Made by a program: the position numbers and the translations under genes. From the NCBI GenBank assembly GCA_025355445.1, contig JANXZQ010000151.1:1-38537 (forward strand): a DNA stretch of 38,537 bases, read 5' to 3'. Below the pieces are notes generated by a model, which was not told the origin of the DNA, ran no database searches, and was given only the letters and a program-made list of their open reading frames with translations. Within the stretch, counting starts at the first letter, position 1. Each line of letters starts with the position of its first letter. Source of the DNA: Gammaproteobacteria bacterium. Its GTDB lineage: Bacteria > Pseudomonadota > Gammaproteobacteria > Steroidobacterales > Steroidobacteraceae. Positions 25,603-38,537 of the stretch are shown piece after piece.

Positions 25603-25767
25603 ATGCTGCATTACGCCATCGTATTTCTAGTCGTTGCTTTAATTGCTGCCGTCTTCGGATTCGGCGGCATCGCCGCCGGTGCCGCAGGCATCGCGAAAGT
25701 GCTATTTGTCGTATTCCTGATCGGCGCGATCGTGAGTTTCTTTATGCATAGTCGGCGAAGGGTCTAA
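25603..25767 (+). CDS. DUF1328 small membrane protein (YtjA-like)
   Basis: A 54-aa protein ([20 protein letters not shown], then [20 protein letters not shown], ending SRRRV) with two membrane helices joined by a Gly/Ala turn and a basic C-terminus. This is the standard DUF1328/UPF0391 pattern. GAGAG precedes the ATG. It is in line after the BON gene with 47 nt between, and its last 66 nt overlap the 3' end of the convergent DUF885 gene. The role of the family is unknown, though it is typical of stress-induced small membrane proteins. Confidence 0.92.
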
Positions 25768-28237: not shown

Positions 28238-30229
28238 GTGAGTACAGGGAGAGTGACCATCAGACCGCTCTGCGCCTTCCGCATCGCTTACGCAATAGTC
28301 TTCGCCGCGGCTTGCGCCGCGAGCGCCGCCGCGGCTGACGCGTCGCCGCCCGTACCGCAGCGCGTGCACAGGTTTCTACGCGTCGAAATCTCACCCAACG
28401 CCGCGTTCGTGGCATCCATCGAAGGCGACTCGCCGCCGAACGGATTTTATCCGCCGCTGCGGGATCTCGTGATCAGACGCGTGCGCGACGGTGCGGCGAC
28501 CAAGATTTCGTTGCCCTGCGGCGCGGTTGCGGAGTGCTGGCCGGGTGCTCCGGCGTGGACCCCGGATGGCAGGCATTTGAGCTTCAGCCTGCGGACGCCG
28601 GGAAGTCATGCGCGCGCGGTATACACGGTGGCGGCCGACGGCAGCGGTCTCAGCAAGCTGTTGGATTTCGGCGGGACCATCGAGGATCTCAAGTACGGTC
28701 CGGACGGACGCTTAAGTATGCTGGCCACGGAAAATGCCAACAAGGAGCTCGGCGCAACGGAGGCGGGCGCGCCCATCGCCGGAGATCTGGATGCGGCAAC
28801 TCCGGAACAGCGCATCGCCGTTCTCGACAAGAACAATGTGCGCTGGGTGTCGCCGCCCGATCTATTCGTTTACGAATACGATTGGCGCCCGGGCGGAAGA
28901 GGGTTCGTGGGTACTGCTGCGCCCGGCGATGGCGATAACAATTGGTGGAGCGCCAAGCTGTACGCGTTCGCGGACGCCGGCGGCCTTGCCAAGGTCATCT
29001 ATACCCCCAGGGATATGCGTCAGCAGATTGCCACGCCGAAGGTGTCGCGCGACGGCTCTACCGTGGCCTTCATTGCGGGAATCATGAGCGATTTTGGTTC
29101 CACCGGCGGTGACGTGTACACGTTGCCCGTAGAAGGCGGCCGCGCCCTCAACATCACGCCTACGATGCGCGCATCGGCCACTGCACTGGCCTGGAATTGC
29201 GATGGCCGGCTGCATGCGCAGCTGCTCGCCGGAGATAAGACCCAATTGGTGGATCTCGGTCTGGGCCGCGAACCGGCGACACCGGTGGCCATGTGGAACG
29301 GTCAGGAAACTTTGAGCAATGGCGACGGCTATGTGTCGGTCGCTTGCCCGACGGGCGTTACGGCTGCGGCGCGAGAATCCTTTACGGCAGCCCCGGAGAT
29401 ACTGGTCGGCGCCTCCGGACACTGGCGGTATCTGACATCGGTCAATGCCGAGTTGCACACTCCGGCGCGGGTCAAGAGCATTTGGTGGCAGAGCGATGGC
29501 TTCAATGTGCAGGGGTGGCTGTTGCTGCCCGAGCATGCGAATGGAAGCCTGCCGATGGTGACCAACGTTCACGGCGGCCCGGCCGCTGCCGCGACGCCGT
29601 TCTTCGCCGGACCCGGACTCACCACCACGCTGCTCGAACATGGTTACGCCCTGTTTCGGCCGAACCCGCGCGGCAGCTACGGTCAAGGCGAGAATTTTAC
29701 CCTGGCGAACGTCCGCGATTTCGGCCATGGCGATCTGCGCGATATCCTGGCCGGCATTGATGCCGCGGCGAAGGCCGCGCCCATTGATACCGCACGCCTG
29801 GGAATTATCGGCGGCAGCTATGGCGGGTTCATGACCATGTGGGCCGTGACTCAGACCAACCGCTTCAAAGCGGCGGTGGCGGCCGCCGGCATCAGCAACT
29901 GGCTGTCTTACTACGGCGAGAACGGCATCGACGCCTGGATGCTGCCGTATTTTGGCGCGTCCGCATACGACGATCCCGCCATCTACGCGCAGTCCTCGGC
30001 GATCAACTACATGCGCAACGTGAAGACACCGACCTTCGCCTACGTCGGCGAGCGGGATATCGAGTGCCCGGCGCCGCAGACGCAGGAGTTCTGGCACGCC
30101 ATGAAGGCCATGAACGTGCCGACGTCCATCATGATCTACCCGGGGGAAGGTCATGGTCTGCGCGATCCCGTTCACAGCGCCGACGCCATGCAGCGCACTC
30201 TGGACTGGTTCGATCGCTATCTGAAGTGA
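28238..30229 (+). CDS. S9 family prolyl oligopeptidase-type peptidase
   Basis: Signal peptide (RIAYAIVFAAACAASAAAAD) followed by a beta-propeller-like N-terminal domain (residues about 40-400) and an alpha/beta hydrolase domain. The catalytic serine is Ser527 in GIIGGSYGGFMTMW. The aspartate is in YVGERDIECPAPQ and the histidine in YPGEGHGLRD, so the triad is complete. The oxyanion/adjacent strand VTNVHGGPAAAATPF is also visible. At 663 aa it matches DPP4/acylaminoacyl-peptidase-type S9 members. It would act in the periplasm. Starts at GTG 28238; a GTG at 28253 is an alternative. Confidence 0.93.
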   Translation: MSTGRVTIRPLCAFRIAYAIVFAAACAASAAAADASPPVPQRVHRFLRVEISPNAAFVASIEGDSPPNGFYPPLRDLVIRRVRDGAATKISLPCGAVAECWPGAPAWTPDGRHLSFSLRTPGSHARAVYTVAADGSGLSKLLDFGGTIEDLKYGPDGRLSMLATENANKELGATEAGAPIAGDLDAATPEQRIAVLDKNNVRWVSPPDLFVYEYDWRPGGRGFVGTAAPGDGDNNWWSAKLYAFADAGGLAKVIYTPRDMRQQIATPKVSRDGSTVAFIAGIMSDFGSTGGDVYTLPVEGGRALNITPTMRASATALAWNCDGRLHAQLLAGDKTQLVDLGLGREPATPVAMWNGQETLSNGDGYVSVACPTGVTAAARESFTAAPEILVGASGHWRYLTSVNAELHTPARVKSIWWQSDGFNVQGWLLLPEHANGSLPMVTNVHGGPAAAATPFFAGPGLTTTLLEHGYALFRPNPRGSYGQGENFTLANVRDFGHGDLRDILAGIDAAAKAAPIDTARLGIIGGSYGGFMTMWAVTQTNRFKAAVAAAGISNWLSYYGENGIDAWMLPYFGASAYDDPAIYAQSSAINYMRNVKTPTFAYVGERDIECPAPQTQEFWHAMKAMNVPTSIMIYPGEGHGLRDPVHSADAMQRTLDWFDRYLK

Positions 30230-30247: not shown

Positions 30248-30263
30248 TGGCACAGGGCTTGCT
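30248..30263 (+). promoter_or_regulatory. Sigma54 (-24/-12) promoter of fliK
   Basis: TGGCAC-AGGGC-TTGCT matches the RpoN consensus TGGCAC-N5-TTGCW at every position. The -12 GC lies at 30261-30262, so transcription should begin near 30274, one base before the fliK ATG. RpoN with FleQ-type activators controls flagellar genes in polarly flagellated gammaproteobacteria. An activator site was not found. Confidence 0.8.
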
Positions 30264-30274
30264 ATTTCCGGGGT

Positions 30275-31873
30275 ATGAATGCAACACCCCCGGTATCGCA
30301 AACCCCCATCGCATCCGATCCGGCGCAAATTAGCGGCCCAGCCTCGGTCAATTCCGTCACTTCCGGCGGCAAACGTGCGGACTTTGCCGCGGCACTCTGC
30401 AAGGCGGGCGCCAAACCCAACCGAAAGCCGGCCCCCAGCATGGCCGGTTCCGGCGCGGCCGGCTACAGCCCGGACGGCGGGCAATTGCCGGGGACGGGCA
30501 ATCTCTCGCCGCCTCCGACAGTATCGGCGGGGACAACCGGCGCGGCACCGGATGCTGTGTCTTCCGGCCGTTTGGGGTCGGTGGGCGATTCCGGCTCGGC
30601 TGCGGCCATGGGTCCCTCCGACGGCGCAGCTACCGCGGCGCCGGGCACGGCTCAAATTGCCGCGGTCACACCCGGCCTCGCACCCACACTGACGTTCTCG
30701 CTGGACCTGTTGGCCGGTGCCGGTAAGCCGGGCGCCGGTGAGCCGGCCTCGCAAAAGGCAGACGCCGCGGCCCTTGCCGGAGCGGCATCCACCGCCGCGA
30801 CGCCCGCCGCCGCGACGCCCGCCGTCGCGACGCCCGCCGCTGCGACCCTGGATGTAGGCGTCGCCGCAGAGCGTGCCACGGTGCCGGGGGGTGCTTCCGT
30901 CGGGGGTCGCGCTGCGATCACGACGGGCACTTCCCCGCGCGCAAGTTTGACGGCGGCGTCGGCCGTTGCGGCGAACGCTGCGGCGACGTCTGCCTCTAGC
31001 GGAGCTTCTGGCAGTGCGGCGGCTCAGGCAAATGCCACAGCGTCCGATCCCTCGTCACTAGGGGCAACCGCGGCTGTCATGGGGGCGGCGACCGGTGCGG
31101 TCGCCGAATCCCAAGCAACCGTCGATTCCACTTTGTCCCCTGCTATCGACTCGGCGACGCCTGCCGCCGGCAGCGCAGCGGTGGCAGCGGGCGCTAACGG
31201 CGCACCCGCGCCGGGACTTCCGGTTCCGGCCGGCCGCCCCGCAGCCGCCGCAGCGACCGCGACGGCCGCGTCAACCGCTGCGGTGGCCACGGCATCCGCG
31301 GGCACCATCGGCACGGACAAGCATGCACACAGCGACAGCGGTGATTCCTTGCTCTTGGATGTTTCGGCCGGTTCCGCGGGCGCCGCGCAATTGTCCGTCA
31401 ATGCGGCCGGCGCAGCGGCGCCCGGCGCGACCGACGCCGCTGCGCCGCCGACCTTGAAAGTCACGGCGGGGGTGGATAGTGCCGAGTTCGGACAGGGTCT
31501 TGCTGACCGTCTGTCTTGGATGGTGGACAACAATCTATCCAGCGCGAAATTGCAGGTCAATCCCCCGCAGCTCGGGCCCATCGAAGTGCGCATCGTGTTG
31601 CAGGGTAACCACGCGCAGGTGTGGCTCACCAGCCATAGCGCGGTAACCCGCGATGCACTGGAGTCGAGCTCGCCCAAGCTGCGCGAGATGCTCGGCGCTC
31701 AAGGATTCGGCCAGGTCAGCGTCGACATTTCGCAGCGCAATTTTCAGGAACGCTCCGCCTATGCGCAGCCCTACGAGAGATCTTCCGTCGCAACCGCCGG
31801 CTCTCCCGCGGTATCCGCAGTTGCGGCCGCTCTGCCGCGGCTCTCAAACGGCGCAGTCGATGCCTACGCTTGA
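30275..31873 (+). CDS. fliK: Flagellar hook-length control protein FliK
   Basis: Exported molecular ruler that sets hook length and switches type III export specificity. The first 400 residues are Ala/Gly/Thr/Pro-rich and poorly conserved, as usual for FliK. The C-terminal 110 residues are the diagnostic Flg_hook domain: ADRLSWMVDNNLSSAKLQVN, then PPQLGPIEVRIVLQGNHAQV and SSPKLREMLGAQGFGQVSVD. At 532 aa it is of typical length. No other flagellar gene is in the window, so fliK is detached from the usual fliE-R operon; it has its own sigma54 promoter. The 3' end stops 3 nt from the fabG stop on the other strand. No ribosome-binding site is visible. Confidence 0.9.
   Translation: MNATPPVSQTPIASDPAQISGPASVNSVTSGGKRADFAAALCKAGAKPNRKPAPSMAGSGAAGYSPDGGQLPGTGNLSPPPTVSAGTTGAAPDAVSSGRLGSVGDSGSAAAMGPSDGAATAAPGTAQIAAVTPGLAPTLTFSLDLLAGAGKPGAGEPASQKADAAALAGAASTAATPAAATPAVATPAAATLDVGVAAERATVPGGASVGGRAAITTGTSPRASLTAASAVAANAAATSASSGASGSAAAQANATASDPSSLGATAAVMGAATGAVAESQATVDSTLSPAIDSATPAAGSAAVAAGANGAPAPGLPVPAGRPAAAAATATAASTAAVATASAGTIGTDKHAHSDSGDSLLLDVSAGSAGAAQLSVNAAGAAAPGATDAAAPPTLKVTAGVDSAEFGQGLADRLSWMVDNNLSSAKLQVNPPQLGPIEVRIVLQGNHAQVWLTSHSAVTRDALESSSPKLREMLGAQGFGQVSVDISQRNFQERSAYAQPYERSSVATAGSPAVSAVAAALPRLSNGAVDAYA
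30794..30838 (+). repeat. Three 15-bp tandem repeats in fliK
   Basis: The unit GCCGCGACGCCCGCC occurs three times (third with GT for GC at bases 1-2), with a partial fourth (GCTGCGACC). It codes for Ala-Ala-Thr-Pro-Ala repeats in the FliK linker, a place where unit gain or loss would change ruler length. Confidence 0.85.
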
Positions 31874-31876
31874 TCT

Positions 31877-32608
31877 TTAGGCCATTCCGCCGTTGATGGA
31901 AATGATTTGTCCGGTGACGTAGCCGGCTTCCGCGGAAGCGAGAAAGGCCACCAAGGCGGCAACTTCTTCCGCGCTGCCGGCGCGCTTCATCGGCACCATG
32001 TCGGCGATGGCGGCGGCATCAAAAGCCACGTCGCCCATGCCGCTGGAAATAATCCCCGGCGCCACGGCATTGACGGTGATGCCGCGGCTCGCCAATTCGA
32101 GGCTCAGCGCCTTGGTGGCGGCGTTCAGCGCGCCCTTGGCCGCCGCGTAGTTCACCTGGCCGCGGTTGCCGAGCAACGCCGTGACCGAGGATATGCTTAT
32201 GATGCGGCCCCAGCGCGTGCGAATCATGGGCAGCATCAGCGGCTGCGTCACGTTGTAGAATCCATTCACCGACACGTCGATGACGCCGTGCCATTGCTGC
32301 GGACTCATTCCCGGGAACACGGCGTCGTCGTGAATGCCGGCGTTGTTTACCAGTACCTGCACCGGTCCATCCTCGAGCAATTTGTCCACTGCTGCGCGCG
32401 TCGCGGTTGCGTCGGTCAGATCGAATAGCACCGCAGCCGCCGCGCCGCCCGCGGCCACGATGGACTCGACGACGGCTTGCGCCGCGGCGGCGCTGCGATG
32501 GGCGTGTACATAAACGAAGCAGCCGGCAGTGCTCAGCCGCCGGCAAATGGCCGAGCCGATTCCGCCGCTGCCGCCCGTTACCAAGGCACGAATCGCCGTT
32601 TTACTCAT
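31877..32608 (-). CDS. fabG: 3-oxoacyl-ACP reductase (FabG-type ketoreductase)
   Basis: Short-chain dehydrogenase that reduces a beta-ketoacyl-ACP with NADPH. The cofactor loop is VTGGSGGIGSAICRRL, NNAG is present (VLVNNAGIHDDAVF), and the catalytic Ser/Tyr/Lys are in ISISSVTALLGNRGQVNYAA and then AKGALNA. It ends GYVTGQIISINGGMA, the FabG terminus. At 243 aa it is full length. It is the last gene of the aryl-polyene-type operon in this window, 11 nt after the dehydratase, corresponding by position to ApeQ in E. coli aryl polyene clusters. Role in polyene chain building is inferred from context. Confidence 0.93.
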   Translation of the reverse strand: MSKTAIRALVTGGSGGIGSAICRRLSTAGCFVYVHAHRSAAAAQAVVESIVAAGGAAAAVLFDLTDATATRAAVDKLLEDGPVQVLVNNAGIHDDAVFPGMSPQQWHGVIDVSVNGFYNVTQPLMLPMIRTRWGRIISISSVTALLGNRGQVNYAAAKGALNAATKALSLELASRGITVNAVAPGIISSGMGDVAFDAAAIADMVPMKRAGSAEEVAALVAFLASAEAGYVTGQIISINGGMA

Positions 32609-32619
32609 CGTTCAACCGT

Positions 32620-33069
32620 CTATTTGGCATCGAAGACCACCGTAGCCCGGCCGCGCAGCAGCGACTGTACCCCGCAGGCTACTGCAAATTCATACAGCGC
32701 AGTGCGGCCGTCGCCCGCGAGCAGCAGGGCATCGCAAATCAGGTCGGCTTGCAGGTCATCGAAGCGCAGCACGTGCAGCCGCACATCCCGCAGGCCGGCG
32801 AGAAATCCAGCCGCGGGTGGTGCTTCGGCCAGGGCCCTGGCGCGGGCTCCAGCCGCGAGCGCGCCATGTACGGCCATCGCCTGTGCGGCATATTCGATTC
32901 CACAAGCGACGCTGAGGCGGCCCTGCGAGCGCAGTGGATTGTCGGTGGCGCGATGCGTGCCGCTGCGGCAGCGAACATGCTGCGCATCCCATTCGACGAT
33001 CTCATCGAGCAGGCACATGCGGTCGCGGTGGGGAATGTTTCTCTCGATCCAGGCGCGGTCTAAGTGCAC
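32620..33069 (-). CDS. Hotdog-fold 3-hydroxyacyl-ACP dehydratase (ApeP-like)
   Basis: A 149-aa single-hotdog protein. The IPHRDRMCLLDEIVEWDAQH start corresponds to the FabZ/ApeP pattern (PHR-x-x-x-LLD). The mid-region LRSQGRLSVACGIEYAAQAM supplies the hotdog helix with Glu as second catalytic residue. The family works as a heterodimer with ApeI in aryl polyene synthases; an ApeI partner is not in the window. Start is GTG 33069, which overlaps the upstream CLF gene by 10 nt. Order (KS, CLF, dehydratase, ketoreductase) is that of an aryl polyene operon. Confidence 0.85.
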   Translation of the reverse strand: MHLDRAWIERNIPHRDRMCLLDEIVEWDAQHVRCRSGTHRATDNPLRSQGRLSVACGIEYAAQAMAVHGALAAGARARALAEAPPAAGFLAGLRDVRLHVLRFDDLQADLICDALLLAGDGRTALYEFAVACGVQSLLRGRATVVFDAK

Positions 33070-33857
33070 GGCTGTACCTGGACCGCGACGCGCGACACAT
33101 CGAGATATTCGAGGATGGCGCGCCCGGCCTGCCCTCGGGCCAGCAAACGCAGCAAGGGGAGCGAGCGCGCCGCAGGAATTGCGCCGCGCAATTCTTCCAA
33201 GGCCGGATCAGCCATTCGTTCAAAGGCGTCGGCGGTGAGCATTGCGTCCAATCTCGCCGACGAAGAGGCGCGCCGTTGCGGAGTCAACACCAGGGCGACG
33301 CCGAAGGCATCGGGCAGCGGACGCTTCGCGTGCAGCGGCTGCGGGTATTCCGAGTCATAGGCGACCAGCAGCACCGGCGCGCCGTCGACCACGACCTGGC
33401 TCATGGCCTCGAGCAGGCCGGCATTGAAGCTCGCATCGAAGGCGCACAACACGTTCGATTCGGCCATCGCGCGGGTGGCGATGCTCCAATAGCCGGCGGC
33501 GGCGTTGTGCACCGAATTGGCAAAGCGCGTGGGCGAAATTTCGCGGCCCGCCAGCGCCAGGGCTTGACACAGTTCGTGGCAGTTTTGTCCATCGCCGCCC
33601 GAGGATGCGAACACGCTGGCGAGTTGCGCGGGATCCTCGCCGGCCTGCGCCGTGGCCTCGATGGCTATCGCCAGCGCCAGCTTGACCACGCGGCCGGTGC
33701 GCCGTCGTTCCGCGGGCGCCAAGTGTGTGGGCGCCGGCAATACCGCGGGCGCCGGCGCATACGCCGCCCGGCCCGCCAGCACCGCGGCCGCTTCGGGCCA
33801 GTTGGACAATCCGGGACCCAGTATCCCGAGGCCGCTTACGTAGGCGGATAGGCTCAC
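33060..33857 (-). CDS. Ketosynthase-like chain-length factor (ApeC-like)
   Basis: A truncated thiolase-fold protein of 265 aa, matching the beta-ketoacyl synthase N-terminal-like family found in aryl polyene clusters. The diagnostic stretch ISPTRFANSVHNAAAGYWSI, then ATRAMAESN takes the place where a ketosynthase has its catalytic Cys, and no Cys is present at that position, so it should be non-catalytic. Such proteins pair with a full ketosynthase to set chain length. It overlaps the ketosynthase gene by 4 nt (GTGA) and the dehydratase by 10 nt, consistent with coupled stoichiometric production. Confidence 0.87.
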   Translation of the reverse strand: MSLSAYVSGLGILGPGLSNWPEAAAVLAGRAAYAPAPAVLPAPTHLAPAERRRTGRVVKLALAIAIEATAQAGEDPAQLASVFASSGGDGQNCHELCQALALAGREISPTRFANSVHNAAAGYWSIATRAMAESNVLCAFDASFNAGLLEAMSQVVVDGAPVLLVAYDSEYPQPLHAKRPLPDAFGVALVLTPQRRASSSARLDAMLTADAFERMADPALEELRGAIPAARSLPLLRLLARGQAGRAILEYLDVSRVAVQVQPCT

Positions 33858-35047
33858 CCTGCGCGCCCGAAGATCAGACTGCAGTTCGTGCCGCCGAAGC
33901 CGAAGGAATTGGAGAGCACCCGCAGCAGCGGGGCGCGGCGATTGTCCTTGATATAGTGTGCCGTCAGGGTGGGGTCGATGGTGCTCGTCTGTACTCCGCC
34001 CGGAATCAACCCGTTCTGAATGGCAAGAGCGCTGATGACCGCCTCCAAGGCACCGGCAGCACCTAAGGTATGACCGGTCGCGCCCTTGGTCGAACTACAA
34101 GGCGTCGTCGGGCCGAACAGACTGGTGACCGCCTGGCTTTCGGATCGGTCATTGCTCAGCGTCCCGGTGCCATGCAAATTGATGTAATCAATGTCGCCGG
34201 GCTCGAGCGCCGCGGCCTTGAGCGCGGCATGCATCGCGAGGCGTGCACCCAAGCCTTCGGGGTGCGGCGCCGACATATGGTAGGCATCGCTCGATTCGCC
34301 GAGACCCAGCAACAGCACGGAGCCGGCGGCGGTAATTTCCGGCGCCCGTTCGAGGACGGCAAAGGCTGCCGCCTCACCGATGGAAATACCGTCGCGCGCG
34401 ACATCGAAAGGGCGGCACGGCCCCGGCGACGTCAGCTGCAGCGAGTGAAAACCGTACAGGGTGGTGAGGCATAGCGAGTCGACTCCGCCGACGAGGGCCG
34501 CATCGATGAGCCCGGCTTCGAGCATGCGCCGTGCCGAGCCAAAGGTTTTGGCGCTGGACGCACAGGCACAGGAGACGGCGACGGCAGGCCCTTGCAGGCT
34601 GCAACGTTGACGTACGTAATCGGCCACCGAAAATGAATTATGAGTGGTGCCGTACTCGAAGCTCGCAGGCAGCGCTCCGCTGACCGGGTCACGCGCGCGA
34701 TAGGCAAGCTCGGTCTGCAGAATGCCGGCAGTGCTCGTACCCAAGAACACGCCCACGCGGTGCCGGCCCCAGCGCTCGGCCGCTTGCTGTACGGCCTCGT
34801 AGAAACCATCCTGGCGCAGGGCGAGCTCCGCCAGCCGGTTGTTGCGGCATTCGAATTTGCGCAGATTTTCCGGCAGCCGCACGGCGTCGACGCCGGCCAC
34901 CTCGCCGACATGGGTGTCGATATCCACGGTTTCGAACTCGCAGCGTTCTAGGCCGCTGTGCTGTTCGATCAGGCTCTGTAAAGTTGCGGCCACACCCGTG
35001 CCGATGCAGCTGGTCGCGGTGAATGTTTTGATCAGCAAGGGCTTCAT
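33854..35047 (-). CDS. Beta-ketoacyl-ACP synthase (KAS II/FabF-like, aryl-polyene type)
   Basis: Condensing enzyme that elongates an ACP-bound acyl chain with malonyl-ACP. The catalytic triad is visible: Cys in AVSCACASSAKTFGSA, His in INLHGTGTLSND and His in STKGATGHTLGAAGA. It ends VLSNSFGFGGTNCSLIFG, the normal KAS II terminus. At 397 aa it is full length. The short, divergent N-terminal region and the adjacent chain-length factor indicate the ApeO/ApeR-type group rather than housekeeping FabF. Its ATG overlaps the deacetylase stop by 4 nt. Confidence 0.93.
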   Translation of the reverse strand: MKPLLIKTFTATSCIGTGVAATLQSLIEQHSGLERCEFETVDIDTHVGEVAGVDAVRLPENLRKFECRNNRLAELALRQDGFYEAVQQAAERWGRHRVGVFLGTSTAGILQTELAYRARDPVSGALPASFEYGTTHNSFSVADYVRQRCSLQGPAVAVSCACASSAKTFGSARRMLEAGLIDAALVGGVDSLCLTTLYGFHSLQLTSPGPCRPFDVARDGISIGEAAAFAVLERAPEITAAGSVLLLGLGESSDAYHMSAPHPEGLGARLAMHAALKAAALEPGDIDYINLHGTGTLSNDRSESQAVTSLFGPTTPCSSTKGATGHTLGAAGALEAVISALAIQNGLIPGGVQTSTIDPTLTAHYIKDNRRAPLLRVLSNSFGFGGTNCSLIFGRAG

Positions 35048-35862
35048 GCCGGTATTGCCGAGCGCAGCGTGACCGGGCGCAGTTGCCGTTCGGCGATGGC
35101 GTCGAGCAGCCGCGGCAGCACTTCCAGGATCACGGGTTGTCCGCTGCGGCCGCGCGCCGCATTGCCATCGTGCAGCAATAGAATGTCGCCGCCTTGCAGT
35201 TGGTCCGCCAGACGCCGGAACACGGTATCCACATCCGTGGTGACGGTGTCGAAGCCGCGGCGTGTCCAGCTCGCGAGCCGCAGTTGCAGGCGCGCCAGTA
35301 TGGGATCGAGAAATGGATTGCGCAGGCCCGCCGGCGCACGAAAAAACTGCGGCATGCTGCCGGTGATGCGCAGGATGCCGTCCTGGGCGCGTGAAATCTC
35401 CGCGCTCATGCCGCCCGGGCCCAGCAGCGAGAAGTTATGCCGATGCCGCTGGCTGTGATTCTCGACGTCGTGTCCCAGTCGCACGATTTCTTGCGCCAGT
35501 TCGGGGAAGCGTTGTACTCGTTCGCCGACGCAAAAAAAGGTAGCACGCGCATGATGACGGGTGAGTGCCGACAAAACCTGAGGCGTGACTTCGGGATCCG
35601 GGCCATCGTCGATGGTAATGGCGACGTCTCCGGACGCCGCGTTGCGCACGGGCAGGCGCGTCATGTTCGGCCCCAGCCACTGGCTGCGCGGCCAAAGTCC
35701 CGCGGCGGCCAAGGCGACGTGATTCGCCGCGACCGCTCCTAAGCCCCACGGCCACGATTGCGGGCGCGCCAGCACTGCTGCCGCGGCGCCCAGATGCACG
35801 GCGGCGGATGCATACAACAGCGGCGAAGGTGACCAACGCCAGGGCGCGCGCCGATTGCTCAC
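35044..35862 (-). CDS. NodB-type polysaccharide deacetylase with N-terminal membrane segments
   Basis: A metal-dependent deacetylase fold with all NodB motifs: AITIDDGPDPEV (metal Asp-Asp), HSQRHRH (H-x3-H zinc site), RAPAGLRNPF and the C-terminal LLLHDG. Two hydrophobic stretches (residues about 13-60, ASAAVHLGAAAAVLARPQSW and AAVAANHVALAAAGLW-like) precede the domain, so the catalytic part is membrane-anchored, probably facing the periplasm. I start at GTG 35862, whose GTGA overlaps the hydrolase stop, as at every neighbouring junction. Its presence in an aryl-polyene-type operon suggests it acts on a lipid- or sugar-linked polyene intermediate; the substrate is unknown. Confidence 0.88.
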   Translation of the reverse strand: MSNRRAPWRWSPSPLLYASAAVHLGAAAAVLARPQSWPWGLGAVAANHVALAAAGLWPRSQWLGPNMTRLPVRNAASGDVAITIDDGPDPEVTPQVLSALTRHHARATFFCVGERVQRFPELAQEIVRLGHDVENHSQRHRHNFSLLGPGGMSAEISRAQDGILRITGSMPQFFRAPAGLRNPFLDPILARLQLRLASWTRRGFDTVTTDVDTVFRRLADQLQGGDILLLHDGNAARGRSGQPVILEVLPRLLDAIAERQLRPVTLRSAIPA

Positions 35863-36500
35863 GTGAATCGCGAATCCAAAAAATTCTCCCATAGGCCGGA
35901 CCAAGTGGCCCAATCGTGTCCGCCCGCGATCACATTCACCGCATTTGCAGGCAGCGTGTCCGCCAGCAGCTTATGCGCCGCGGAAAAGCGATCTTGCGCA
36001 CCGTATCCCAGATATAGCGGCCGTGCATCGGCGCGACGCGTCTTTATATAGCGCCATATTCGGCGTTCTTCGTCGGTTTCCGCAAGTTCGCCCGGCTGCC
36101 ATGCCGCAAGTCCCCGCGCCTGCACGATTTCCGCGGTTAAAATCCGATTTCCCAGGTAAGGAGCCAGCAGACACAGCCCGTCGAGTTCATCGGGATACGA
36201 GGCGGCATAGTCGAGGGCAATGAGCCCACCGAGCGAGATCCCGCCCATCCACAGCCTAATGCCCGCCGCCCGCGCCGGCAGCACGATGTCGGATCGCAGC
36301 CGCACGAGCGCGCCGCGATCGCCCACGTGCGCCAACTCCATGTCCACGAATATCAAGTCCAGGTCCAGCTGCCGTGCCCGTACCGCTTCGGCAAAGCCGG
36401 CGGTCAAAAAATCCTGTGCGGCGTGATAGGCGCCGGGCAGCCACACCATGCGTGTGGGCGCCGCGGCTGCTGCCACTGCCGGCCTTGTAATGCTACGCAC
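35859..36500 (-). CDS. Alpha/beta-hydrolase (acyl or thioester hydrolase type)
   Basis: A 213-aa cytoplasmic alpha/beta-hydrolase. The nucleophile elbow is MGGISLGGLIALDYA (Ser), the acid is in LYLGYGAQDRFSAA (Asp) and the base in IAGGHDWATW (His), giving a complete triad. MVWLPGAYHAAQDFL near the N-terminus forms the oxyanion strand. I choose GTG 36500, which overlaps the MMPL stop by 8 nt; the longer frame only extends through the MMPL coding sequence. It could release or transfer the finished acyl chain (thioesterase-like), but that is inference. Lies between exporter and deacetylase in the operon. Confidence 0.82.
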   Translation of the reverse strand: MRSITRPAVAAAAAPTRMVWLPGAYHAAQDFLTAGFAEAVRARQLDLDLIFVDMELAHVGDRGALVRLRSDIVLPARAAGIRLWMGGISLGGLIALDYAASYPDELDGLCLLAPYLGNRILTAEIVQARGLAAWQPGELAETDEERRIWRYIKTRRADARPLYLGYGAQDRFSAAHKLLADTLPANAVNVIAGGHDWATWSGLWENFLDSRFT

Positions 36501-38537
36501 GCGACTCGTCGGCGCGTGCCAGCACTGCCGCGAATAGCAGCGCCAAGAAGGCGCCCGGCGCCACCGTGGCGCCCAAGGCCACCAGCACGGGGATATGCGA
36601 GAACAACAGCAGCCCAAAGCCGATCACCGTACTCGCATTGGCGATCACCAAAGAGGCCAGCGTCAGTGGCTCGCTCCCCGACTCGTGGACGCTGGCTTGC
36701 CGGTCAAAGAACAGGGCGTAGTTGGAACCGACGGCAACGATGAGCAGCATGCCTACCAGGTGCAAAATAGTCAGCTGCACTCCGCTCAATACAAGTCCCG
36801 CCGCAACGCTGAGCACCGCCAGCAGCAGCGGCGCCATCACTCTCGCCACCCGCCATGGCGAGCGTAGCGCGATCGAGAGCAGCACGATGATGGCCAGCAC
36901 GCCCGCCAGGGACATATGAATGGCCTCGGACAGATAACTGGCATACAAACCGTCGGATTCTTGCTTCAAGTCGAGCGCCCGCGCCTCGGAAAGCCCCGCA
37001 ACTTGCAGCGCCGACCTCACCCGAGCCGTGTCGACTGCCTGCGATCCGGCCGCCGCATGCAGCGGCAGAATCGCGTTCCAACGATCCCTCTGATGCAGGA
37101 TCAGCGCATCGAAGCCGGTGCTGAGCGATGTTCCCTGAAGATCCCGCGCGCCCAGCAGCGCGCCCTGCCGCGTCTTCTCGACATCAGTCAGAAAAGGCTG
37201 CAGTACAGCGTCGCTCAATTCCAAGCCGGGCGTGGCCTGCCGCAGGCTTGCACGCAGTTGGCCGGCATCGGGCAGGCTATCGCGGCGGGTTTTTTGCGTA
37301 GCCATGCTGGGCAAGTAATTCGCCGGACTGTCGAAACCGCCGATCACCTGGGCGTCCACCAAAGCCGTCAGCGGCTGGGCCGCGCGTTCTGCGAGCTCAA
37401 GCGCTGATTCGAGGGTCGGAGCGGAGACGATCACCAGCTCGCGGACATCGGCGGCTCCCAAATCGCCGCGCAACTTCGCGTCAAAGTCCTGGTCCGCCAT
37501 GGATATCGGACTCAACGCCGCGAGCTCACGATTCCACATCGTAGTTTCATGTCGGATCAGCACGACGAGCGCCGCCGCTGCCAGCAGCAGGGCGAGCGCC
37601 GCAACGAGCATGCGGTTCAGTTGCCGCGCAGGACGCAGCAACCCGGCAACCCGGGAGCCCAAGGGTGCGACGTCACGTATCGCGAAGCCGCTCGGCAGCA
37701 GTGCCGGCAGCACGAAGCGCGTCACCAAAGCTGCAGCCACCAGCCCGCTGATGGAGTACAGGCCCAGTTGGGCAAGGCCGGGGAAACCCGAGGGAAGCAG
37801 CGACACGAAGCCGCAAACGGAAGTCAACATCCCGAGACGGATGGTGGGCCACCATGCCCGCTGCCAGCTCTGCGCGGCCGTCGCGTCCTGCCGCAGACGG
37901 TGCGATTGAACGAAAAAATAAATGGAATAATCCACCGACTCGCCGATCAACGTGATGCCGAAGCCCAGGGTAATGCCGTGAACGGCGCCGAAGCCCAAGG
38001 CAACGGCGGCGATGCCGATCACCGCACCGCTCGCCACGGGCGCAAGACCGAGCGCCAACGCGGTGAATGACCGGTATACGGCAAACAATAAACTGACCAC
38101 CAGGATGGCGCTGACGATCGACAGACGGATGGCGGCGCGTTCGATCTTTGCGCGCGCAGCGACGGCGAATACGCCGGGCCCGCTCATTTTCAATTGCAGA
38201 GCTTGGGCACCGTTCTGCGTGGACTCGGGCACCGCCGCGGCGAAGGCCGCGCGGATCGCCTCAATGGCGCGTTGCTGGGCATCGGTATCGGAGCCTCCGG
38301 CCGTGGTTTGCGCCGCGAGGAGGGCGCGCGAGCCGTCGCGGGAAACCCAGATGCCGTCGCCGGTCGCCGGCTGGGGCATGCGTTCCAGCTCCTCGACGAT
38401 GTGCAGCATTTCGCCCGTCGGGTCGCTCGGCAGCAGGGACTTGAGCATCAATCCGGCGGCGCGCTTTTCCGCCGATGGACTGCACGGCGCCATTGCGGAC
38501 ACGATCGAGGAGCTGGCGTCGACCGCCGGATTGATGC
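36493..38537 (-). CDS. MMPL-family exporter, 5' end beyond the window (aryl-polyene type)
   Basis: Inner-membrane RND-superfamily transporter of the MMPL kind, with at least 680 residues visible and the frame open to the window edge. Groups of membrane helices are seen in the first half (about residues 130-300 of the visible part, including FGAVHGITLGFGITLIGESV, which holds the conserved acidic residue and SVDYSIYF). A periplasmic domain and a second helical group near the C-terminus (LHLVGMLLIVAVGSNYALFF, with the second GxNY/DxxY-type motif) follow. MMPL exporters of this type are standard parts of aryl polyene clusters (ApeM) and move the polyene lipid to the outer leaflet. The start codon lies outside the window. 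Confidence 0.9.
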   Translation of the reverse strand, partial: INPAVDASSSIVSAMAPCSPSAEKRAAGLMLKSLLPSDPTGEMLHIVEELERMPQPATGDGIWVSRDGSRALLAAQTTAGGSDTDAQQRAIEAIRAAFAAAVPESTQNGAQALQLKMSGPGVFAVAARAKIERAAIRLSIVSAILVVSLLFAVYRSFTALALGLAPVASGAVIGIAAVALGFGAVHGITLGFGITLIGESVDYSIYFFVQSHRLRQDATAAQSWQRAWWPTIRLGMLTSVCGFVSLLPSGFPGLAQLGLYSISGLVAAALVTRFVLPALLPSGFAIRDVAPLGSRVAGLLRPARQLNRMLVAALALLLAAAALVVLIRHETTMWNRELAALSPISMADQDFDAKLRGDLGAADVRELVIVSAPTLESALELAERAAQPLTALVDAQVIGGFDSPANYLPSMATQKTRRDSLPDAGQLRASLRQATPGLELSDAVLQPFLTDVEKTRQGALLGARDLQGTSLSTGFDALILHQRDRWNAILPLHAAAGSQAVDTARVRSALQVAGLSEARALDLKQESDGLYASYLSEAIHMSLAGVLAIIVLLSIALRSPWRVARVMAPLLLAVLSVAAGLVLSGVQLTILHLVGMLLIVAVGSNYALFFDRQASVHESGSEPLTLASLVIANASTVIGFGLLLFSHIPVLVALGATVAPGAFLALLFAAVLARADESRA

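Follow-up and report, generated by a model that had tools for sequence, protein, structure and literature searches.

The hook-ruler gene fliK appears to be transcribed as its own unit from a working σ54 promoter placed so close to the start codon that the message would be leaderless, and it seems to share this arrangement with a small, conserved group of flagellar genes. On comparative sequence evidence, we put the probability of this reading at roughly 80%. The gene lies in a 38,537-base stretch of DNA (the window) that is the entire contig C376 of a 4.87-Mb draft genome, G000, in 548 contigs, with an estimated completeness of ~84% and an estimated contamination of 6%. In the mechanism we propose, the σ54 holoenzyme, opened by an activator of the FleQ/FleR (FlrA/FlrC) type, would start transcription ~0 to 3 nt before the fliK ATG, and ribosomes would bind directly at the 5'-terminal AUG, with no need for a Shine-Dalgarno sequence. 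The group with promoters fused to the start codon would comprise fliK, flgA (P-ring chaperone), and flrB/fleS (sensor kinase) in the window's genus (g1) and its sister genus (g3), together called the clade here. The σ54 promoters of flgB, fliL, and a fliD-like gene would have kept their leaders.

The fliK gene (30275 to 31873, plus strand) encodes 532 amino acids, and a C-terminal Flg_hook domain (Pfam PF02120, residues 411 to 491, E = 3.6e-20) assigns the product to FliK. This is the only PF02120 match in G000; the second fliK that the initial annotation had proposed looking for was not found in this ~84% complete bin. The FliK C terminus, -DAYA (31859 to 31870), is invariant in 14/14 aligned sequences. 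G000 also contains fliM, fliF, flgA, fliL, and a gene for an flrB-type kinase, so FliK occurs together with flagellum genes. One PF04552 match (contig C407, E = 6.5e-66) identifies rpoN, which is found in 58/60 relatives as well. Three PF06490 (FleQ) matches were detected in G000, and no enhancer site was identified for fliK. A genome lacking rpoN, which the initial annotation had named as fatal to its promoter, is thus not what we have, and the FleQ-domain proteins and other flagellar genes that it had listed for checking are present.

The putative promoter, TGGCACAGGGCTTGCT at 30248 to 30263 (plus strand), reads TGGCAC-N5-TTGCT and is composed of a −24 element, TGGCAC (30248 to 30253), and a −12 element, TTGCT (30259 to 30263), with the GG and GC doublets of the σ54 class in their TGGCAC-N5-TTGCW context. 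It is the sole zero-mismatch match to TGGCACN5TTGCW in the window. Sites with up to two mismatches number 22, the same as the 22.0 expected, and the information therefore lies in the exact match alone. With canonical spacing, which places the C of TTGC (30262) at −12, the predicted +1 is the T at 30274 (uncertain by ~2 bases), immediately before the ATG at 30275 to 30277, and the predicted leader is 1 nt long. Both the exact RpoN consensus and the start one base before the ATG had been called in the initial annotation, and both calls hold as predictions. A transcript start on the A of the ATG (30275) fits equally well. Of 14 fliK sites, 5 have a G at the predicted +1, 6 a C, and 3 a T, and a purine is usually preferred as the σ54 start base; because the predicted base is often not a purine, the true fliK start may be shifted by 1 to 2 bases. 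In Campylobacter jejuni, σ54 starts vary between 8 and 13 nt from the motif, according to an excerpt of that study (PMC3847290).

The fliK start lacks a recognizable ribosome-binding signal, as had been claimed. The best pairing of the 16S rRNA tail just upstream of the ATG is −2.1 kcal/mol, near the random median, since composition-matched random 17-mers have a median of −1.7 kcal/mol and their lowest 5% lie at −6.1 kcal/mol. The fliK frame opens after the TGA of the upstream peptidase gene, and no start codon precedes the ATG at 30275 in this frame. Just after this ATG, changes at codon positions 1, 2, and 3 sum to 16, 13, and 31, and the third position changes most in 5/5 compared pairs (12 to 28 codons per pair); the same five pairs show no third-position pattern upstream of the σ54 site. 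The sequences in our FliK alignment had been cut at the chosen ATGs beforehand, so their invariant first methionine is not evidence for the start.

Conservation among relatives supports the fliK promoter. An exact TGGCACN5TTGCW with a predicted leader of 1 to 3 nt precedes all 14 readable fliK starts in g1 and g3, G000 included, which extends the apparently leaderless fliK of the initial annotation to two genera. TGGCAC is identical at all 14 loci, as is TTGC, whose following base is T or A. The ten specified columns of the −24 and −12 elements are invariant at 2.0 bits each, and the flanking columns have a mean of 0.32 bits (maximum, 1.63). The left neighbor of fliK differs among these genomes: it is an S9 peptidase gene in G000, G008, G010, and G020 (in the latter three, S9 and LysE genes both lie to the left), and in G001, G004, G005, G019, and G024 fliI ends ~0.5 kb upstream, leaving space for fliJ. 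The site and its spacing are therefore kept though the neighbor changes. As judged from these alignments, the exact site with its short predicted leader is not due to chance.

These counts derive from a search that matched FliK in 35/60 relatives, including 13/22 of the same genus; of the nine same-genus relatives without a match, G002 and G013 possess fliM. The search gave 37 match rows, 7 of them without a locus (including a weak second match in G005), and the remaining 30 loci comprise the clade set of 14, L021 (G009, cut at a contig end), and 15 loci outside the clade. Among the last, the arrangement is mixed. The predicted leader is 2 nt in L023, and the leader to an ATG is 21 nt in L026, 31 nt in L029, and 51 nt in L017, where the site has one mismatch. 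A GTG lies at 26 nt in L020 and L028 and at 61 nt in L030 (one mismatch), and L024 could be read as 37 nt to an ATG or −2 nt to a GTG. No site with up to three mismatches was found at the fliK start of L016, L018, L022, L025, or L027, and L019 and L031 are unreadable at contig ends. Short leaders are not exclusive to the clade: in G034 (g13) the predicted leader is 2 nt for fliK and 25 nt for flrB, and in G032 (g11) that of flgA is 1 nt.

The leaderless-type geometry of fliK is shared with flgA and flrB. For flgA, a homologue search gave exact sites and predicted leaders of 1 to 5 nt at 17/17 readable clade loci. (Fourteen rows of this search had no locus and L169 is truncated; four loci have two ATGs side by side, and for these we took the second, the first giving 1 to 2 nt.) The flrB/fleS kinase gene has a predicted leader of 1 to 4 nt at 15/15 readable clade loci, with one mismatch in the site at 12 and two mismatches at 3; these counts omit the unreadable L238 and the weak matches L250 to L252. 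Across the 46 ATGs of fliK, flgA, and flrB, the predicted leader is never below 1 nt, as would be expected if a shorter one cut into the AUG. Measured from predicted starts, the ATGs pile up at the shortest spacing that spares it. Outside the clade, flgA is mixed (12 loci), with leaders of 1 nt (L181), 4 nt with one mismatch (L190), and 2 nt with two mismatches (L188), the remainder being longer or ambiguous. The flrB leaders there are 24 to 46 nt in the six loci where a site is followed by an ATG start; at L241 the site lies 31 nt ahead of a TTG, L243 matches in part, and no site was seen at L242, L246, or L247. The six outgroup FlrB N termini are a few residues shorter, and a conversion of leader into codons was considered for flrB and set aside because the placement of alignment gaps is too uncertain. 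In a separate observation made by eye, GCCAAAATATCGTC-like DNA recurs near flgA codons 4 to 8 in many of L161 to L178 despite amino acid changes; this might be a putative FleQ/FlrC-type activator site inside the coding region.

Other σ54 flagellar genes have longer predicted leaders: 10 to 30 nt for flgB (15 clade loci), 30 to 36 nt for fliL (10 clade loci; 34 nt at the one outgroup locus, L072), and 45 to 48 nt for the fliD-like gene (3 genomes). flgB was located in 15/17 flgA loci and fliL in 11/15 fliM loci; we recognized flgB, the fliD-like gene, and the majority of fliL starts by eye. The tabulation of sites and leaders covered 11 to 45 bases upstream of each ATG and was complemented by separate wider scans. 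Median 16S-tail pairing is −0.1 kcal/mol for fliK (14 loci), −0.9 kcal/mol for flgA, −0.1 kcal/mol for flrB, and −8.5 kcal/mol for flgB, where L170 (−3.5 kcal/mol) is an exception. The fliL median of −4.3 kcal/mol is weak despite the predicted leader, and a few short-leader starts have Shine-Dalgarno-like pairing (flgA L176, −5.4 kcal/mol, and L177, −5.1 kcal/mol; flrB L236, −4.6 kcal/mol), so the contrast in Shine-Dalgarno strength rests on flgB.

A genome-wide search also pointed to these genes. Exact TGGCACN5TTGCW sites number 14 in G000 versus 1 for the reversed pattern, and 9 in G010 and 7 in G020 versus 4 and 4. Exact sites alone are not proof, since the excess is smaller in the latter two genomes, and part of the sites may be chance matches. 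At 8 of the 30 exact sites in the three genomes, the ATG of an open reading frame of at least 80 amino acids lies at 1 to 5 nt, compared to a fraction of 0.024 for random points (binomial tail, 4e-7, a value that overstates independence since the species are related). These eight starts belong to fliK and flgA in each of the three genomes and, in two genomes, to a tolC-like gene that is short in one of them. We did not count the tolC-like gene as a fourth member. It is full length in G010, with a predicted leader of 1 nt; the G000 copy (L041, contig C420) is a short frame of 104 amino acids that matches only residues 6 to 81 of the G010 protein, in the G001 orthologue a TTG comes at 27 nt and the nearest ATG lies at 75 nt, and a σ54 site was not seen at the G028 gene. 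Each of the 14 exact sites in G000 has the ending TTGCT, a separate search for TTGCA there gave 0, and G010 and G020 use both endings. A small conserved protein (MQS-I-ALL...TLLVRRGDGQFAL) is encoded after an exact site at L108 and at L034 (reverse strand); its predicted leader is 1 nt long in G020 and 31 nt long in G000.

We weighed two other accounts of how fliK is expressed. Translation could depend mainly on messages that start upstream, in the peptidase gene or at fliJ, leaving the σ54 site a secondary role. The S9 prolyl oligopeptidase-type gene (28238 to 30229, plus strand) is on the same strand, and a gap of 45 bases separates its stop codon from the fliK ATG. In L022 and L025, of the same family, fliK directly follows the preceding gene with a Shine-Dalgarno-like sequence (by eye) and without a visible σ54 site. 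Readthrough of this kind is nevertheless improbable for the clade, where the upstream gene varies between species and the site and spacing stay constant, where the gap before fliK is without a Shine-Dalgarno sequence, and where flgA, divergent from flgB and unreachable from the flgB side, has the same geometry. Alternatively, the abutting ATG could be unused and the message leadered after all, with translation starting further downstream. The low complexity of the FliK N terminus would allow for this, as would the outgroup loci, where ATGs mostly lie 21 to 51 nt after an exact or near fliK site (L026, L029, L017) and 24 to 46 nt after the six flrB sites. However, in the window the frame has no further start codon until codon 56, which lies beyond a FAAAL segment whose F is invariant in the 14 aligned sequences, third-position bias begins right after the first ATG, 8/14 FliK proteins begin with MNA, and FlgA proteins begin with a signal-peptide-like sequence at the abutting ATG (by eye). 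A downstream start is thus very improbable.

The geometry might instead be real and selectively neutral, an ancestral leader deletion that was retained without altering how much protein is made or when. Had each gene changed once in an ancestor and been inherited in that form, the conservation would look the same. Set against this are the three separate promoters that share the geometry while those of flgB, fliL, and the fliD-like gene do not, and the spacing that stays at 1 to 5 nt while the flanks have diverged; we regard neutrality as somewhat unlikely. Under the preferred reading, in which the σ54 promoter drives a leaderless fliK within a conserved group, modest, dosage-limiting translation of low-copy proteins is a likely consequence. 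It is suggested by a need that fliK, flgA, and flrB would share, since we take their products to be required in few copies. As a hypothesis by analogy, such limitation is in line with the reduced translation of leaderless regulators in an excerpt of the Salmonella study (PMC3293720). A broader idea is more tentative, and we lean against it: the RpoN flagellar regulon may be split at translation initiation into a leaderless arm (fliK, flgA, and flrB/fleS) and a leadered arm (flgB with a strong Shine-Dalgarno sequence, fliL, and the fliD-like gene), setting low-copy parts apart from bulk structural parts. We rate it lower because fliL shows no strong Shine-Dalgarno sequence. If such a split were real, one sigma factor would send the ribosome two kinds of message.

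The position of fliK was assessed next to the gene order in relatives. The window yielded no other flagellar gene to the left or right of fliK, and 18 open reading frames scanned left of base 25,700 gave no flagellar family, so the gene is locally isolated. On its right, in convergent orientation, begins a cluster (31877 to 38502, minus strand) that we presume to be of the polyene or aryl polyene type and that encodes a ketoreductase, ketoacyl synthases, a polysaccharide deacetylase, an alpha/beta hydrolase, and an MMPL exporter; the window ends beside the MMPL gene. In G000, fliL is at base 48 of contig C113, and flrB, fliF, and fliG are on C130. The order in relatives is flrB, a response regulator gene, fliF, fliG, fliI, fliK, another response regulator gene, a histidine kinase gene, an M13 peptidase gene (in 8/11 stretches), and then fliL, fliM, and fliP. 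The claim that fliK lies outside any flagellar operon therefore stands locally, and in relatives the gene is within the fli locus. The polyene-type cluster separates fliK from fliL in 8/10 genomes whose fetched stretch spans both (G001, G008, G010, G011, G018, G019, G020, and G021), lying between fliK and the response regulator gene with ~16 to 22 kb from fliK to fliL; its genes were not found between fliK and fliL in G004 and G024. Contig pieces of G005 and G014 show the cluster adjoining fliK. Stretches of the split locus include L079/L080, L083, L085/L086, and L093.

From the gene order in relatives compared with that in G000, rather than from a dated tree, fliK here looks like an island produced by insertions around a gene that already owned its promoter. 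The private promoter would then be older than the physical isolation of fliK, which would explain why the gene could survive insertions on both sides, and a private promoter may likewise let other operon members survive large insertions. If the preferred reading is right, activator-dependent σ54 transcription can couple to translation without a ribosome-binding site, and this offers a testable idea for how the hook ruler and the FlrB kinase stay at a low copy number.

Parts of this arrangement are familiar, as far as excerpts of the published accounts go. Pseudomonas resembles the clade in that σ54 controls fliK and in its FleQ and FleS/FleR regulators: there, fliK is a class III gene (σ54 and FleR), in another class than fliE-J, and flgA is a class II gene (σ54 and FleQ) (PMC8036289). 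A private RpoN promoter for the ruler gene, which the initial annotation had called unusual, is therefore known; the leaderless geometry is unusual and is not mentioned in that excerpt. Control of fliK by σ54 also occurs in Helicobacter pylori and C. jejuni (PMC8036289, PMC3930126). Vibrio cholerae flgA is said to be RpoN independent (PMC3930126), a point against the preferred reading.

Leaderless genes are likewise known widely. The Salmonella definition (leaders of 0 to 6 nt) covers the clade genes as predicted, and its 33 leaderless genes include some for regulators and membrane proteins whose level is expected to be low; the 33 are of mixed function, however, and a link to σ54 is not stated in the excerpt (PMC3293720). 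In C. jejuni, leaderless start codons are all ATG, as here, but all lie behind a σ70 motif and are poorly conserved between species (PMC3847290). There is also a likeness in form with Deinococcus radiodurans, where a core promoter is fused to the start codon with no or a very short 5' untranslated region; that promoter has a classical −10 motif and serves about a third of the genes (PMC12340547), whereas the clade would use an activator-requiring σ54 −24/−12 element at a few flagellar genes. Where the excerpts specify which promoter serves bacterial leaderless genes, they give one of the σ70 type (including PMC3847290 and PMC12340547). We found no report of leaderless σ54 flagellar promoters in excerpts of the literature on leaderless genes and σ54 flagellar control, supplementary tables excepted. 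Sinorhizobium meliloti has 171 leaderless and 112 σ54 starts (PMC3616915), and it or Bradyrhizobium japonicum could contain single leaderless σ54 cases. Leaderless genes and a σ54 promoter for fliK are thus each known already; the apparent novelty lies in a conserved group of σ54 promoters predicted to be fused to the start codon.
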